The translations under genes and the position numbers were made by a program. The notes under the pieces are model-generated. The model ran no database searches. It was not told where the DNA came from and worked only from the letters and a program-made list of their open reading frames with translations. Source: Clostridia bacterium (GTDB taxonomy: Bacteria; Bacillota; Clostridia; Oscillospirales; Acutalibacteraceae). From it: a DNA stretch of 64,000 nt. The stretch spans positions 44,994 through 108,993 of the forward strand of contig JAFRMR010000027.1 in NCBI GenBank assembly GCA_017430535.1. Reading direction: 5' to 3'. How positions within the stretch are numbered: the first letter of the stretch is position 1; the number at the start of each line of letters is the position of its first letter. Shown here in pieces: positions 3,110 through 63,998 of the stretch.

Positions 3110-5005
3110 TTATGAGAAGATTTTATACCACAGCCCGAAAGCGGAAAGGAGAGGAGTGAGCGCTTCAAGGATTCTGCCGAAGAAAAGCCGGGTCTGAGCG
3201 CCGGATTCATCGGCCTCATACATATTCCACTCGTTTGCGGGGGCATATCTTACGCAGATGCAGTCAAGATAATCGCCGTAGCCCCCTTCGGATATGGTCT
3301 GCACCCCGTGGGCTTTAAGGTCGTCAAACAGTTTTTGTCTTTCATTGTACCGCTCGGGATTCAGAAGGGAAAACTCGCTTTTATCCGTGCTTGCCTTCCA
3401 GAACCTCCAGGAAAGCTCGGAGCGCCTGATATTGTTTTTTTGCATATCGGTTTCAGCGGCTTTATATGCGCTTGCCCAGGCGGAATCAATGGCAGAAACT
3501 TCTGCAGAGGTAAAGTTCACGCTAGAATAAGGGCTGTCGCCTATACTGAGGTGCCCGTCATCCCCTCCTGCGTGCTCAATGTGTTTATCAATAACAAGCT
3601 TTATGTTTTCCCACCCGGGGCCGTAATAAGCTCTGAGGAAGCCATTCTCTTCGCTTTCAAGGTCGCAGTACGGGTTCTGAAGGCATTTTGAAATCATGTA
3701 GGAGCGCAGTTCGCCGAACTCCGTATCACAGGAGGACATATAGTAATTGCCCTCTTCATAAACGCCCTTTACATTATTCTCATAGAATACCTGAATATTT
3801 CGCTGTATAACATCAAAATCGGGAAAAACAATGCAGGTGTTGGCGTAGTTTGTGGTGTAATCCCATATATAAATCCGCCTGCATATTGCGGACCAGTTTT
3901 TCAGGTCCTTCATAAGCTTTACATTGCGCTCGCACTTCGGGTTATCCAGAGCATGGCAGAAGCAGCACTCTATGGTACAGAGCCGCACTATAACATTATC
4001 ACGGGGAACAATATTTTCCGGCGCGCTCCTTGTGTACTGATAAGCGAAGGTATCAATTGCAACATTATTATAGCCGGCGGCCTTTACGGCATCGGCAATC
4101 TGATTTACAAAATTCAGCATAGTTGCGGACTGAACGCCGCCGTGGGCTTTTTCAAAAGCCCTGCATTTTTCGCACTCGCAGTAATTGTAATTATCATTCT
4201 GAGTTACGGAAACTATCTGCAGGGAAGCATCCGGGTTGTGTTTTTCCTTAAGCAGAGCCAGCACATTTTTTGTTGCAACGGCAAGCACATCCGGGTTCAT
4301 AAGGCAGGGTTGGTCGGCAGTGCGTTTCCCGTCATGCAGGGCAAGCTGCTCCGGGTGTGAATCCGCATTGGCCGCAGTTTCGCAAAGGGTGCCCATTGTG
4401 TGGCAGAATCCGCCTAAATAATTCACCGTGCCGCCGGCCTCATCGGGTATTGCGCGGTAAGTGCCGCCGGTAAGGCCGTTTGCCATGGAATATTCGGTGT
4501 TTGTGGGGCTCTTCCAGTCTGTATCGGTATATTCGAAGAACGGGTTATAGGAAACATCTGTGCCGGCGGGGACCGGAATTTCTTTAACCTCAGGCAGTTC
4601 AATAATATCCGAGGTGTAAACCTTCCTTTTGCAGAACTGCTCTGCAAAGCGGTAAACCCCTGCCTGCAGACCTCTTGCGCCGGTGCCGCCGATATGCACA
4701 TTACCTCCGGCAGCGGTAATGCGGTAGCCGTTTTCCGCCGTCCTGGTCAAATCTGCCTTTGAAGCCGAACCCACAGCGATATACTTATCCTCTGCGGAGG
4801 ATACAACAGGTATATCTGCCCCCAGAGCCTCCGAGAGCATCTCGCTCAGCCTTCCCGCGGCAAAAGTTTCATAAACGGATGGAGAAGCTGAAACCAGCAC
4901 GCACCAGGTTTTATCAATATGAATATCATTATCCGCGGCATAAGCCGGGGCAATAAGCCCTGTGCAGATAACCAAGGCAATAAAAACCGATAATAATTTT
5001 TTCAT
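3110..5005 (-). CDS. Secreted DUF4838 protein
   Basis: 631 residues. Residues 1-23 are a Sec signal peptide (MKKLLSVF, hydrophobic core, cut after AYA). Residues about 30-140 resemble the non-catalytic N-terminal domain found in front of alpha-glucuronidases and GH20 enzymes (AVGSASKADL, GTGARGLQAGVYRF). The remainder is a DUF4838-type domain with CECEKCRAFEKAHGG (about 276-290) and a Trp/Tyr-rich barrel-like region; this family is carbohydrate-linked but its reaction is not known to me. The last 25 residues (FFGRILEALTPLLSAFGLWY) are a hydrophobic-amphipathic tail like that of the protein at 60972-63698. Single-gene unit with its own promoter (5039-5067) and terminator (2967-2994). Confidence 0.8.
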   Translation of the reverse strand: MKKLLSVFIALVICTGLIAPAYAADNDIHIDKTWCVLVSASPSVYETFAAGRLSEMLSEALGADIPVVSSAEDKYIAVGSASKADLTRTAENGYRITAAGGNVHIGGTGARGLQAGVYRFAEQFCKRKVYTSDIIELPEVKEIPVPAGTDVSYNPFFEYTDTDWKSPTNTEYSMANGLTGGTYRAIPDEAGGTVNYLGGFCHTMGTLCETAANADSHPEQLALHDGKRTADQPCLMNPDVLAVATKNVLALLKEKHNPDASLQIVSVTQNDNYNYCECEKCRAFEKAHGGVQSATMLNFVNQIADAVKAAGYNNVAIDTFAYQYTRSAPENIVPRDNVIVRLCTIECCFCHALDNPKCERNVKLMKDLKNWSAICRRIYIWDYTTNYANTCIVFPDFDVIQRNIQVFYENNVKGVYEEGNYYMSSCDTEFGELRSYMISKCLQNPYCDLESEENGFLRAYYGPGWENIKLVIDKHIEHAGGDDGHLSIGDSPYSSVNFTSAEVSAIDSAWASAYKAAETDMQKNNIRRSELSWRFWKASTDKSEFSLLNPERYNERQKLFDDLKAHGVQTISEGGYGDYLDCICVRYAPANEWNMYEADESGAQTRLFFGRILEALTPLLSAFGLWYKIFS

Positions 5006-21052: not shown

Positions 21053-21364
21053 AAAAAAACAGCCCGGTCAGGGGCGGATGCTCATAAAACAGTAATGCCT
21101 CAAAAAGCAATCTTTGCGCATCTTGTGCAGGCATTCCTCCTCGGAATACAGCTAAGTATTCCTCGGCGTCAAGACCCGCAAATACGCACAAATCTTATCT
21201 TTTTGAGGTGCAAAGCAGTTTTCTCGTGAAAAATAAGCCGCAGAACAAGGAAGATTTGCGAAGCATACTTTGTGTATGGTGAACAAATCCGACGATGTGC
21301 TGCGGTTTTAGTTTTCCGCGAAAACCAATACTGATTTACGAACATCCGCCCAAGGGCTGTTTTA
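21053..21364 (-). terminator. Terminator split by a 280-bp insertion
   Basis: Minus-strand arm AAAACAGCCC (reads from 21364) and arm GGGCTGTTTTTTT (21065 to 21053) are complementary and end in a T run, but are separated by the whole 280-bp repeat element. They look like the two halves of the terminator of the zinc-ribbon gene that ends at 21379. A structured loop might still allow termination. Confidence 0.65.
21072..21351. mobile_element. MITE-like 280-bp element, copy 1
   Basis: Bounded by GGGCGGATG (21072-21080) and CATCCGCCC (21343-21351); the inverted similarity runs about 25 bp (21072-21096 and 21327-21351) with four mismatches. Copy 2 is at 63719-63998, also exactly 280 bp, with 11 differences by my reading, ten or more of them transitions. 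Inner long-range pairs include CCTCAAAAAG (21098-21107) with CTTTTTGAGG (about 21199-21208) and CCGCAG with CTGCGG (about 21238-21304), each enclosing smaller hairpins. No transposase. Fits a non-autonomous, highly folded mobile element. Confidence 0.8.
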
Positions 21365-21378
21365 ATTATATAAATTTA

Positions 21379-22320
21379 TCAACCGAGGAATTTGCCGAAA
21401 ATGTTTTTCGCGGCGTTTATTGCGGAATCCGCCTTATCCTTTGCGGTATCGGCTTTGTTCTGAGCCGCAGCCTGAGCCGCAGCCCTTTTATCATAATCGC
21501 CCACAAAGAAGGTGAAGGTAAGGAAGTCGCCCTGGTTTGCGTCGGTTTTGTCAAAGGCGCGGCAAACGCCGTCAACAACCTTGTAATAAATATCGCTGTC
21601 CCCGGAATAGAAGGGGATAAAGCCGGCGGCTTTAAGTGCTTCAACATACTGCCGCAGCTGGGTTTCACCTGCGCCGCCCACATGCAGGCTTACGGCCCTT
21701 GCGCCGTTTACGCTGCCGTTTTCATCAATATCTATTGTGCCGCCCAGGTTCCATTTAGGGTACTGGGGCAGGAATTCATCCCACTTGGCCATCTGCTTTG
21801 CCGCCGCCTGAGCCGGGGCGGGGAGCATTGCGCCGCACTCTGCGCAGTAAACCGTTTCGGGTATATTCTGCTTGCCGCATTTGGGGCAGAGATAGCCCTG
21901 GCCTATGGTCTGCTCGGGCAGAGCGGAGCCGCACCTGGGGCAGAACTTATGGTCTGCGGTAACCACTTCGCCGCAGGACGGGCATTCCTTCATATTCTGC
22001 GCAGCCTGAGCCGCTGCGCCCTGCATAGCGGTTGCCCAGCCTGCCAGAGCGTTGCCCAGGTTTTCCATTCCCCCGGCGGAGGATGCCGCCGCAGAGGCCT
22101 GAGAAGCGGCGCCGGTTACGGCTTCGCCGCCTGCGTTTGCGGCTGCTTCAAGATCTTTTGTTGCCTGATTCAGGTTGTTTGCCGCCTGGCCTGCCAGCCT
22201 GTCCGCAGCGGGCTTGACCGCGCTTTCAACCGCTTTGCCCACCGCATTCTGAATACCTTTGCCTATGCCTTCGCTTACGGCGCTGTCCACTGCGCCTTTG
22301 AGCTTATCAAAAAGTGCCAT
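21379..22320 (-). CDS. Double zinc-ribbon protein
   Basis: 313 residues, cytoplasmic, no signal peptide. Residues 1-110 are Ala-rich and helical (MALFDKLKGAVDSAVSEG; ANNLNQATKDLEAAAN) and may form a coiled coil or amphipathic bundle. Two zinc ribbons follow: CPSCGEVVTADHKFCPRCG (about 113-131) and CPKCGKQNIPETVYCAECG (about 145-163). A compact domain of about 110 residues comes next (GTIDIDENGSVNGARAVSLH ... FFVGDYDKR), then a second Ala/Lys helix ending NIFGKFLG. I do not know a function. RBS GGGAGGAAATAAAATG. It forms a pair with the smaller zinc-ribbon membrane protein 66 nt upstream, so the two may work together. Confidence 0.82.
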   Translation of the reverse strand: MALFDKLKGAVDSAVSEGIGKGIQNAVGKAVESAVKPAADRLAGQAANNLNQATKDLEAAANAGGEAVTGAASQASAAASSAGGMENLGNALAGWATAMQGAAAQAAQNMKECPSCGEVVTADHKFCPRCGSALPEQTIGQGYLCPKCGKQNIPETVYCAECGAMLPAPAQAAAKQMAKWDEFLPQYPKWNLGGTIDIDENGSVNGARAVSLHVGGAGETQLRQYVEALKAAGFIPFYSGDSDIYYKVVDGVCRAFDKTDANQGDFLTFTFFVGDYDKRAAAQAAAQNKADTAKDKADSAINAAKNIFGKFLG

Positions 22321-47128: not shown

Positions 47129-47290
47129 AAAAACAAAGCTTTTCCTTAATCATATGGCGGCAGGCAGACTGTGGCGCACACGACTGTCCGCTTAATGCTG
47201 CTCGGTTCACCCGCCTGACATGGTTCACAGTGTCCTGTCGCACAGGACCCACACGCCACATGATTAAAGAAAAGCTCGCACCTCATATTC
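47129..47290 (-). ncRNA. ffs: Signal recognition particle RNA, small type
   Basis: Minus-strand RNA. The apical helix carries GTCAGGCGGGTGAACCGAGC followed by AGCATTAAGCGG, the conserved SRP54/Ffh-binding part in Clostridia form, and GTGTGCG further down. The ends pair through a long stem: AGCTTTTC-tTTAATCAT (from 47276) with ATGATTAA-gGAAAAGCT (to 47138), and a T-rich stretch (TTTGTTTTT) follows as terminator. 5' end set about 7 nt from the -10 box. It guides membrane and secreted proteins to the Sec machinery with Ffh. Its place just upstream of dnaX is the same as scr in Bacillus. Confidence 0.92.
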
Positions 47291-60971: not shown

Positions 60972-63698
60972 ATGAAAAACACAAAAAGAGCTTTATCTCT
61001 TCTGCTCTCGCTTATGCTCGTGCTGGGCGCGGTTGCTGTCGGGGGAATGAGCGCGTCGGCGGAGCTTGCGGACAACGCCGAGCTCATAATAGGCAATGTT
61101 TGTGCAATTGAAGGCGGAGATATTCTGCTATATAAAGGCACGGGCTGGAGTATTACCGTAAACGAAGACGAAAACGGCGTCACTCTGAGTCTTGACAATC
61201 TTAACCTCGAGCCGGACTTCGGCTGCATTTATGCCCAATATCTCGACCTCACAATCACGGGCAGCGCGAAGCTGACCGCGACCGGCGATGTATTTGAAGC
61301 TATCGCTGTATCTGAGGGAAATCTTACTCTGAACGGGGACTTTGTTCTCAGCGCGCAGTGCGATACCGGCGGCGCGCTCGGCGTTAACGGCAACCTGACG
61401 GTTGAGGGCGGCTCTCTGAGTGTTATAAATACCGGAGACAATAATGCTATCTCCACCGACACAATGACGGTCAACGGCGGCTCGGTTTACGCAAAGACAG
61501 AAAGCGGTTCAGATATTTATCGTGCAATCTCCGCTGGAATCACCCTCAACAACGGCGAGGCGTTTGCACTCGGTGATGAAAGGGCCAAAGAGGTGCTTAT
61601 AAAAGTTCCCGGTCAGCCGCCTTACATAACCGGCGACATCATCGAATACGGCACATACCCGCAGAGCGAGGTAAAGGATGAAAGCACCCTCGCCGCGCTG
61701 AATGAAAAAATCAGCGATGACGGTTGGGTAAGCTACGGCTACTACAGCGGCACGGGATTGGAAGAAAGTATGGAGCCGTCGGATTATATGAAATATCAGG
61801 ATGTTGTCCTTGAGGGAGTTAAATACAGAGCCGTAATGTTTACGGCTTACCGTCCTTACCGGACTAATCTTCCCTGCTCGGCGGATAACTCATATCAGGA
61901 TGACAACGGGTATTATGTTTCCGGTGAAGGCGGCGCCAATGTTTACTGGTTTAAGTTTGAGCCGGTTGAATGGAGGGTGCTTGACCCCGATACCGGCCTT
62001 GTGCTGTGCAACAGTATTATAGACAGCCAGGCGTTCAGCAACACTGTTTTCTTTAACGGATACAACCCTTTTACCGACAGTGACCTGACACTTTTTGCCG
62101 GCGATTTTGCAAACAGCAGCATAAGGCAGTGGCTCAATGATGATTTTATAAACACGGCTTTTTCGCCGGCGCAGCAGGAAAACATTGTTTTAAGCGAACA
62201 GCCTGCCTATTACCCTATGGGGGAAGTCGATGTCTTGATTTTACCCTACTTAACTCTCACATACACTTTTGAGCCGACAACGGAAAAGGTATTCCTTCTC
62301 ACATCAAAAGATTCATTGAACACGGAATACGGCTTCAGCGGACAATCCGGGGACACCGCCCTCATTATGTCCGGCAGCGATTACGCTGAATCTCAGGGAC
62401 TGGACTCCGCTTATCCATATTATTATTCCGCCTGGCTGACACGCACTTGTTCTGATACGAATGCAAATTCGGTTTACGCCTTTGATTCAAGAGGTGAAAT
62501 GGTTTCTGTAATTATCCCTGATACCTCCGCCGGTATTGTGCCGGCTATGCACCTCACAGAGCTTGTATCCGACCCCACGGGCGCGCCGGCTGTTATTGAA
62601 ATCCCCGAAGGTATTGAGGATATCTATAATAACAGTGAATATACCGGCGTTGAGGCAGGCGAGGGCTATACCCTCAGCGGTACTGTTACGGCAACCGACG
62701 CGGGCAATTACACCGCCACCGCAACCCTTGAGGACGGCTATATCTGGAGCGACGGCACATATGAGGATAAGGAAATAAGCTGGAAGATTAAGCCGCGCCT
62801 TATCTGGCTCACCCCCGAAGCGAGCCTTGATAATGACACATTCGTCTATGACGGCACGGAAAAGAAGCCGGAGCTCGCTTTCCTTAAAGATTCATATATT
62901 GATAAAGAACTCACAGAGGGCGTTGATTACAAAATAATCCACAAAGAGTGGAGAAACAACATAAATGCCTCCGACCCCGAAGAAGAGGATAATGAAAAAC
63001 TGCCTACAGCGCTTTTTGCCATTGAGGGTATGGGCAATTACTACCACTCCATAGATCAGTACCTGGTATTCAGAATTGAAAAAGCCGACCCCGAGGTTAC
63101 CGCTCCCGTTCCCGTTGAAGGGCTCAGGGCGGACGGCACACCGAAAGAGCTTGTAACCGCAGGCAGCACAACCGGCGGCACCCTCGAGTATTCGCTTGAC
63201 GGCGAAAACTATTCAACGGATTTACCCAAAGCGTCGGAGGAAGGCGCATATACCGTTTATTACAGAGTAACGGGTAATGAGAATTATAACGATGCAGAAC
63301 CCAAAACCGTAAGCGCCGCCATAGGCGAAGGCAGTAAGGATGAACCCGCCGCAAAAGCGGAGATTTCAATAAAAGGGGAAAACAGCTTAACCCTCAGCTA
63401 CAGGCAGAGTAAAACCTATACAGCCGAAGCCGCAGGCATACCCGAAGGGGGCAGTGTGGTGTGGTACCTTAACGGCGAAAAGGCCGGCGAGGGCAGAACC
63501 TTCAGGGTTGAAAACCCGGAAAAGGATTACACCCTGCAGTCAAAGGTGCTTGATAAGGACGGCAACACCGTTGCCGAAAGCGAAACCGTAAAGGTTACCG
63601 TAAAGCACGGCTTCTTTGATAAACTCAAAGCCTGGCTCACCGATTTACTCCTCGGCGTCTTCGCCCCCCTCTTCTCAAAATTTGAAGAAGTCTGCTGA
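60972..63698 (+). CDS. Large secreted DUF6273 surface protein
   Basis: 908 residues from ATG 60972 (GGAGG, 8 nt upstream). Residues 1-30 are a signal peptide (MKNTKRALSLLLSLMLVLGA, cut after SASA). Residues about 40-200 form a strand-rich repeat region of the carbohydrate-binding beta-helix kind (LTITGSAKLTATGDVFEAIA; LGVNGNLTVEGGSLSVI). Residues about 215-530 carry a DUF6273 domain (VEWRVLDPDTGLVLCNS; SSIRQWLNDDFINTAFSPA; FLLTSKDSLN; GIVPAMHLTELV). Three or more small beta domains follow (TDAGNYTATATLEDGYIWSD; EGAYTVYYRVTGNENYNDAE). The end is FFDKLKAWLTDLLLGVFAPL, an amphipathic tail. Probably a wall-associated adhesin or scaffold; no catalytic residues seen. No sortase motif. Confidence 0.85.
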   Translation: MKNTKRALSLLLSLMLVLGAVAVGGMSASAELADNAELIIGNVCAIEGGDILLYKGTGWSITVNEDENGVTLSLDNLNLEPDFGCIYAQYLDLTITGSAKLTATGDVFEAIAVSEGNLTLNGDFVLSAQCDTGGALGVNGNLTVEGGSLSVINTGDNNAISTDTMTVNGGSVYAKTESGSDIYRAISAGITLNNGEAFALGDERAKEVLIKVPGQPPYITGDIIEYGTYPQSEVKDESTLAALNEKISDDGWVSYGYYSGTGLEESMEPSDYMKYQDVVLEGVKYRAVMFTAYRPYRTNLPCSADNSYQDDNGYYVSGEGGANVYWFKFEPVEWRVLDPDTGLVLCNSIIDSQAFSNTVFFNGYNPFTDSDLTLFAGDFANSSIRQWLNDDFINTAFSPAQQENIVLSEQPAYYPMGEVDVLILPYLTLTYTFEPTTEKVFLLTSKDSLNTEYGFSGQSGDTALIMSGSDYAESQGLDSAYPYYYSAWLTRTCSDTNANSVYAFDSRGEMVSVIIPDTSAGIVPAMHLTELVSDPTGAPAVIEIPEGIEDIYNNSEYTGVEAGEGYTLSGTVTATDAGNYTATATLEDGYIWSDGTYEDKEISWKIKPRLIWLTPEASLDNDTFVYDGTEKKPELAFLKDSYIDKELTEGVDYKIIHKEWRNNINASDPEEEDNEKLPTALFAIEGMGNYYHSIDQYLVFRIEKADPEVTAPVPVEGLRADGTPKELVTAGSTTGGTLEYSLDGENYSTDLPKASEEGAYTVYYRVTGNENYNDAEPKTVSAAIGEGSKDEPAAKAEISIKGENSLTLSYRQSKTYTAEAAGIPEGGSVVWYLNGEKAGEGRTFRVENPEKDYTLQSKVLDKDGNTVAESETVKVTVKHGFFDKLKAWLTDLLLGVFAPLFSKFEEVC

Positions 63699-63703
63699 AT
63701 AAG

Positions 63704-63716
63704 AAAAGAACCTGCC
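63704..63716 (+). terminator. Left arm of a split terminator
   Basis: AAAAGAACCTGCC, 6 nt after the DUF6273 stop codon, has the form of the left arm of an intrinsic terminator (compare 48571-48581), but its partner is not within reach because the 280-bp element begins 3 nt later. The partner should lie just past position 64000. Confidence 0.5.
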
Positions 63717-63718
63717 AA

Positions 63719-63998
63719 GGGCGGATGCTCATAAAACAGTAATGCCTCAAAAAGCGACCTTTGCGCATCTTGCGCAGGCATTCCTCCTCGGAATACAGCC
63801 AAGTATTCCTCGTTGTCAAGACCTGCAAATATGCACAAATCTCATCTTTTTGAGGTGCAAAGCAGTTTTCTCGTGAAAAATAAGCCGCAGAACAAGGAAG
63901 ATTTGCGAAGCATACTTTGTGTATGGTGAACAAATCTGACGATGTACTGCGGTTTTAGTTTTCCGCGAAAACCAATACTGATTTACGAACATCCGCCC
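63719..63998. mobile_element. MITE-like 280-bp element, copy 2
   Basis: Same length, boundaries (GGGCGGATG ... CATCCGCCC) and direction as copy 1 at 21072-21351, with 11 substitutions and no gaps by my reading. It ends two bases before the window does. A short minus-strand frame in both copies is a by-product of the repeat, not a gene. Confidence 0.8.

Follow-up and report, generated by a model that had tools for sequence, protein, structure and literature searches.

A family of 280-bp folded, MITE-like DNA elements probably inserted in the loops of terminator-like hairpins in Clostridia

The window, i.e. the whole stretch of 64,000 nucleotides of Clostridia DNA analysed here, carries two plus-strand copies of a 280-bp element, copy 1 at 21072..21351 and copy 2 at 63719..63998, which differ from each other by 11 substitutions; both positions and this count, already given in an earlier note on this DNA, were reproduced. 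Copy 1 adjoins the end of a minus-strand zinc-ribbon gene (21379-22320), and copy 2 stands after a plus-strand ORF ending at 63698, with the window and its contig (C25) both terminating 2 bases beyond the element. The element opens with a left terminal inverted repeat (21072..21096, plus strand, starting GGGCGGATG) and closes with a right one (21327..21351, plus strand), the two 25-mers matching at 21 of 25 positions, in agreement with the imperfect 25-bp repeats described before. Between the repeats, arm 1 (21097..21208, plus strand) exhibits the closing strands GCCTCAAAAAG / CTTTTTGAGG and a tip hairpin GGAATAC/GTATTCC, the hub motif TTTRAGGTGYRAARCAGTTTT covers 21202..21222 (plus strand), where predicted folds show a mini-hairpin TGC-AAA-GCA (21209..21217, plus strand), and arm 2 (21218..21325, plus strand) is built from GTTTTC...GAAAAC, the inner pairs CCGCAG/CTGCGG and GATTTG/CAAATC, and the tip CATAC/GTATG. 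The three complementary arm pairs singled out previously are thus all present and are paired in the predicted fold.

Both window copies are real, but the element had been reported as present twice and is more frequent than that. A blastn search of its own genome (G000; 2.41 Mb in 27 contigs, 96.9% complete) yielded 15 matches, comprising 11 full-length copies and 4 halves at contig ends. We read these as 12 insertion loci, since contig ends cut three of the elements in two; complementary flanks joined L004 to L012, L014 to L007 and L015 to L013, and both flanks were read for the other nine. Coincidence of element copies with contig ends recurs in related draft genomes. All 11 full copies are exactly 280 bp long, with a mean pairwise difference of 3.5%. 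The flanks of the own-genome copies are mutually unrelated, and therefore a segmental duplication, raised earlier as a possible source of the two copies, does not account for them. When the query was lengthened to 1680 bases by adding 700 bases of flank per side, most matches ended at the element plus AA at either end; the expected stop of similarity at the element thus held for most matches, but a few extended past it, the furthest by 36 bases. Multiple unrelated sites (12 own-genome loci), inverted repeats, a dinucleotide repeated at most junctions and a length of 280 bp, too short for a transposase gene, point to a MITE-like element. Of the two options offered in the note, a non-autonomous element or a mobile RNA, it is the former that fits, and we infer from these features that the element is mobile.

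The main feature of the element, absent from the earlier note, is its target. All 12 own-genome loci are enclosed by a terminator-like hairpin, with the element in its loop; both flanks were read for nine of them, and for three the pairing was deduced across contigs. At each locus the flanking sequences make up the two strands of a stem accompanied by A/T runs, resembling an intrinsic terminator opened at its loop, and the flank stem score was at least 6 at all 12. For copy 1, the left half of the target stem is located at 21056..21065 (plus strand, AAAACAGCCC) and the right half at 21354..21363 (plus strand, GGGCTGTTTT), immediately beyond the 3' end of the zinc-ribbon gene. For copy 2, the left half is at 63708..63715 (plus strand, GAACCTGC) and its presumed partner GCAGGTTC is found on contig C11 (L012). 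Judged from the filled sites, the target stem halves of the own copies are intact on either side. The search for an empty site yielded no clean case, and the genes flanking locus L002 did not turn up as neighbours among the congeners listed.

The target was then assessed across relatives, for which the stem tests take in the 77 copies with enough flank out of 83 rows (11 from the own genome, 37 from the genus and 35 from GTDB; row L200 repeats L050 in a shifted reading and is the one double among them, and row L007 is without a left flank). A gapless stem with a score of at least 6 was exhibited by 47 of the 77 copies, all 47 also with a T/A run, and 30 copies failed, compared with 5.4% of 2351 random points from the same loci for the stem and 3.6% for the stem plus T/A run. 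Likewise, a related stem score of at least 7 was reached by 47/77 copies versus 11.7% of 2000 mismatched left/right flank pairs. Folding of the flanks gave a hairpin across the junction in 58/77 copies versus 39% of 1178 control points, a one-sided hairpin in 8/77 versus 13% of controls, i.e. no commoner, and neither in 11/77. Such folding is a weak measure of the target that barely separates copies from controls; loop insertion therefore rests on the stem test, and insertion beside a hairpin is without support.

At the junctions, the 83 rows show AA|AA in 57 cases, TT|TT in 6 and other combinations in 20. Copy 1 has AA at its right junction (21352..21353, plus strand) and AG at its left, where most other copies have AA. 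Since both AA and TT pairs occur, we read them as a duplicated loop dinucleotide rather than as fixed ends of the element, which may reflect a target-site duplication. The excess of AA over TT is about 9 to 1 and follows neither transcription nor GC skew, the AA copies occurring both ways relative to transcription (6 '++', 10 '--'). A diverged subfamily in G015 (L286-L289), whose ends read CGGCAG or CGGCGG and whose hub is altered, stands apart from this AA/TT count and as written carries TT|TT at three of its four copies and AA|AA at one. Locus L003 of the own genome and L050 of G018 have at least 12 bases of element-adjacent flank common to the two species, which could mean either that a single insertion was inherited or that the same terminator was hit twice. 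For L114 and L211, the right flank repeats part of the element end beside the insertion, suggestive of a second copy or a rearrangement.

The 280-bp query matched the own genome and 16 of 44 congeners, two of these by a 25-base stretch only, and none of 54 genomes of other genera, with up to seven candidates scored per genome; the end pattern is present in 18 of 45 genus genomes. In GTDB species genomes, the exact 21-base core occurs in at least 110 stretches, 56 with both ends and 54 without. Of the latter, 41 are cut by the stretch end, and the remaining 13 include four in unrelated bacteria as well as relatives with other or lost ends. Among the 80 titles listed for core matches, 76 are Clostridia of various names, many of them from gut or rumen samples, and the four from other bacteria are probably chance matches. 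A scan of 394 genomes drawn evenly from the order, blind to diverged cores such as that of G015, found the exact core in two, the own genome and one of another family. The hub motif, which served as query for finding relatives, is exact in 83 of 106 loci, some of the 106 without an element.

Most of the sequence differs between subfamilies, yet 72 of the 83 rows measure 275-283 bp, and diverged relatives, most of them in gut Clostridia, share this length, the target habit (47/77) and the branched fold. Internal-deletion forms of 141, 204, 220-229 and 256 bp also occur. One locus (L173) is a one-armed form that lost arm 2 and retained the ends and the hub. Loci L117, L161 and L169 combine the same hub with quite different terminal repeats (TAGCCAAT..., AGCAGTGGA...) and have no initial GGG. 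Phage and plasmid collections gave no blastn match to the element, whereby carriage by phages or plasmids was rejected, and the exact 21-mer is absent from the viral contigs. Rfam gave no match at gathering score in the window's copies and none at E<=1 in the element of six loci, so that a known RNA family was rejected too; the earlier remark that no name was known for the family agrees with these searches.

Genes were called with a simple ORF caller around the 49 copies for which sufficient flank was available. None of the ORFs runs across a copy, 47 of the 49 are called as lying downstream of one or more genes, and the surrounding genes are convergent at 22 copies, co-directional at 25 and called divergent at two, one of which (L001) actually lies between two minus-strand genes. 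Replication strand shows no bias (53 of 93 places, the 93 including a few chance matches in unrelated bacteria). A position nearly always beside a gene 3' end would also be expected if the copies were not mobile and instead were complex terminators made by the host and spread by gene conversion. We consider this highly improbable in view of the exact ends, the unrelated flanks, the repeated dinucleotide and the patchy distribution within the order.

We analysed the fold of the element as RNA and as DNA. The RNA fold z-scores were -8.3 for the plus and -11.6 for the minus strand, with 0 of 100 shuffles as stable, and the DNA fold z-score of the plus strand was -7.3. Folded together with its target stem, the element is far below shuffles both as RNA and as DNA, and the predicted DNA folds run continuously into the target stem. 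Five diverged members gave like folds on both strands, consisting of an outer stem and two long arms, with the mini-hairpin TGC-AAA-GCA present in 6 of these 10 folds.

Covariation supports the two-domain fold that had been proposed. In an alignment of 19 diverged copies drawn from the core-matching set (A4), 26 of 48 pairs change on both sides against a shuffled mean of 16.0, and in one of 33 closer copies (A2) 24 of 60 do so against 8.7, with 0 of 500 shuffles as high in either set; both comparisons are biased towards the structures, which were derived from these very alignments, and relatedness is not taken into account by the shuffles. In A4, 95.8% of the cells pair versus 42.8-55.1% in slid controls, and in A2 the value is 97.5%. 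Inner helices hold 17 of the 26 two-sided changes in A4 and 14 of the 24 in A2, and the outer helix formed by the terminal repeats shows two-sided changes across relatives as well.

Within the terminal repeats, positions 4-12 match on average at 8.06 of 9 positions within a copy versus 5.09 across copies (72 copies). Resolved by genome, the ends match across copies as well as within one copy in the own genome, G019, G030 and SIG582, whereas they pair better within a copy than across copies in G010 (2 copies) and CAMVRG (4 copies). This comparison weakened the variation of the terminal repeats as a proof of structure. Template switching can perfect quasi-palindromes, and the complementarity might accordingly be maintained by such replication errors together with shared recognition of the ends, with no selection for the fold. 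The first group of genomes fits that explanation, as do the surplus of two-sided over one-sided changes and the near-equal numbers of G-T and A-C mismatches given below. It does not account, however, for a length that hardly varies or for the architecture that diverged subfamilies have in common, and the ends in G010 and CAMVRG run against it, so that we hold it to be quite unlikely.

The mismatches also bear on whether the constraint acts on RNA. At pairs predicted on both strands, a choice that favours Watson-Crick pairs, A-C mismatches are roughly as frequent as G-T ones (G-T versus A-C: 11 vs 16 and 17 vs 21 cells). An RNA made from one strand is expected to tolerate G-U but not A-C; the near-equality therefore favours folded or palindromic DNA, or a strand-neutral constraint, over RNA. 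The better-folding strand switches between subfamilies: the minus-strand consensus of the close set is clearly more stable (-93.3 vs -66.9), as in the window's own type, whereas the plus strand is the more stable in A4 (-81.9 vs -62.7) and folds better in L111, L192 and L186. A mobile structured RNA, ribozyme-like or borne by a retroelement, which enters terminator hairpins as RNA and is copied back into DNA, would explain a conserved, covarying secondary structure, a target that coincides with the 3' end of transcripts and the clear minus-strand preference of the close set. Equal mismatches, the strand switch and AA copies in both orientations to transcription argue against this second option of the note, and to our knowledge reverse splicing is not expected to yield a repeated dinucleotide; we thus regard it as improbable. 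A terminator scan identified three terminator-like sites around L192 (0.4 in shuffles) and none in copy 1 or its flanks, and the arm tips of several subfamilies look like bidirectional terminators.

To identify an enzyme, six transposase profiles (HTH_38, DUF772, Y1_Tnp, IS110, ISKra4 and DDE_Tnp_1) were searched in mostly draft assemblies. Profiles for HTH_38 (IS30), DUF772, IS110, ISKra4 and DDE_Tnp_1 found nothing in the own genome. Within the 45 genus genomes, DUF772 is present in three and DDE_Tnp_1 in two, none of them the own genome, and an IS110 DEDD transposase exceeds the cut-off in five, again not in the own; this absence speaks against a derivative of IS110/IS1111. Y1_Tnp has a single match in the own genome, a RAYT-like gene (G000:C12:34122-34451; L285 1739-2494, minus strand), whose surrounding 5 kb are devoid of the element core motif, and none in several genomes that carry the element, among them G019 and G030 (97% completeness). 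REP and REPIN sequences are folded DNA elements, likewise non-autonomous, that presumably depend on RAYT (Y1) transposases acting in trans. The present element resembles them in being non-autonomous folded DNA and differs in that several of its bearers, such as G019 and G030, are without a Y1_Tnp match, despite the Y1 gene of the own genome, which speaks against a REP/RAYT system.

A full-length, transposase-encoding relative with the same ends, which the earlier note had suggested looking for, was not found among the own-genome end matches, among the places listed for the 45 genus genomes, or among the 61 candidates of an inverted-repeat scan of 1.08 Mb of partly redundant DNA. Of these candidates, 58 measure 200-330 bp, and the three outside that range are the 141-bp deletion form and two chance-like cases. 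At G000:C24:14049-14093, two near matches to the element end face opposite ways within a span of 45 bases, and a copy lies 1.4 kb away.

Insertion sequences that enter terminator hairpins are known. As far as the consulted parts of two reports go, hairpins, several of them transcription terminators, are targeted by IS1272/TnSha1 of staphylococci by shape and not by sequence, and the target stem-loop of IS1272 is partly or wholly deleted with no duplication (PMC5678879, PMC4923244); loop duplication is drawn in that part of the 2017 paper as one possible pathway of a model and not as a finding for IS1272. The element could thus be an ordinary deletion-derived MITE of a known insertion-sequence kind, with the fold as a by-product. 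Terminal inverted repeats, the repeated dinucleotide, the internal-deletion forms and the habit of these IS1182-family members to enter terminator hairpins (PMC5678879, PMC4923244) are consistent with such an origin. The inner arms covary, however, and the length is near-constant across diverged subfamilies; HTH_38, DUF772, IS110, ISKra4 and DDE_Tnp_1, the families this point covers, have no match in the own genome; and IS1272, as described there, removes the target stem without a duplication. We consider a deletion-derived MITE unlikely. IS1272/TnSha1 encodes a transposase and deletes the stem, whereas the element described here keeps the stem halves and repeats a dinucleotide; with intact stem halves and neither DUF772 nor DDE_Tnp_1 in the own genome, a derivative of IS1182/IS1272 is not supported.

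Small folded repeats with MITE features are also described in pneumococci, namely RUP, BOX and SPRITE. In the portion of the source consulted, RUP and BOX have inverted repeats and duplications, and SPRITE is terminator-like and the most enriched downstream of genes (PMC3049150). They are typically shorter than 200 bp with other folds, and terminator-loop insertion is not among the features described for them in that portion. IS1397, ISKpn1 and IS621 insert specifically into REP palindromes, according to the part of the source at hand (PMC1525189), and share palindromic targeting with the present element. They are autonomous, though, and their targets belong to one repeat sequence family, whereas here terminators of any sequence are entered. 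As these sources describe them, no system among IS1272/TnSha1, RUP/BOX/SPRITE and IS1397/ISKpn1/IS621 unites an element that lacks coding sequence with undamaged stem halves and the fold found here. The literature searched, with most subscription journals and ISfinder outside its scope, gave no recognised terminator-loop element with a duplication, and we regard a MITE-like family inserting in terminator loops as new.

The reading we favour, and hold to be probable, is that these DNA elements, MITE-like, non-autonomous and about 280 bp long, form a family that is inserted by an enzyme in terminator loops and handled as folded DNA. The terminator hairpin would be extruded or single-stranded, and an enzyme acting in trans would join the ends of the element into its loop; a stagger of 2 bp would duplicate the loop dinucleotide. 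The element would be processed as folded or cruciform DNA and not as RNA. Such a site would be tolerated because it lies outside genes and because the original stem halves could still pair across the folded element; in some subfamilies, arms supplying terminator-like hairpins may add to this tolerance. A bolder version, which we rate as unlikely, is a new class of mobile element moving as folded DNA. Its hub and branched architecture would be conserved while the terminal repeats vary and keep pairing, an enzyme that recognises shape and belongs to none of the usual transposase families, perhaps one of the host, would insert it in any terminator-hairpin loop, and its own terminator-like hairpins would keep termination. 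Terminators are safe landing sites in a dense bacterial genome. With an element that apparently finds terminators by shape, stem halves that are kept and a non-coding conserved fold, the family offers a system for testing structure-guided insertion and may open a way to insertion at the ends of genes.

Apart from the element, the window carries a match to the bacterial small SRP RNA at 47155-47254 (minus strand, 48.9 bits), and the DNA around L111 contains a weak match to Gut-1 RNA at 4479-4566 (plus strand, 34.6 bits versus a gathering score of 50), more than 2 kb from the element.
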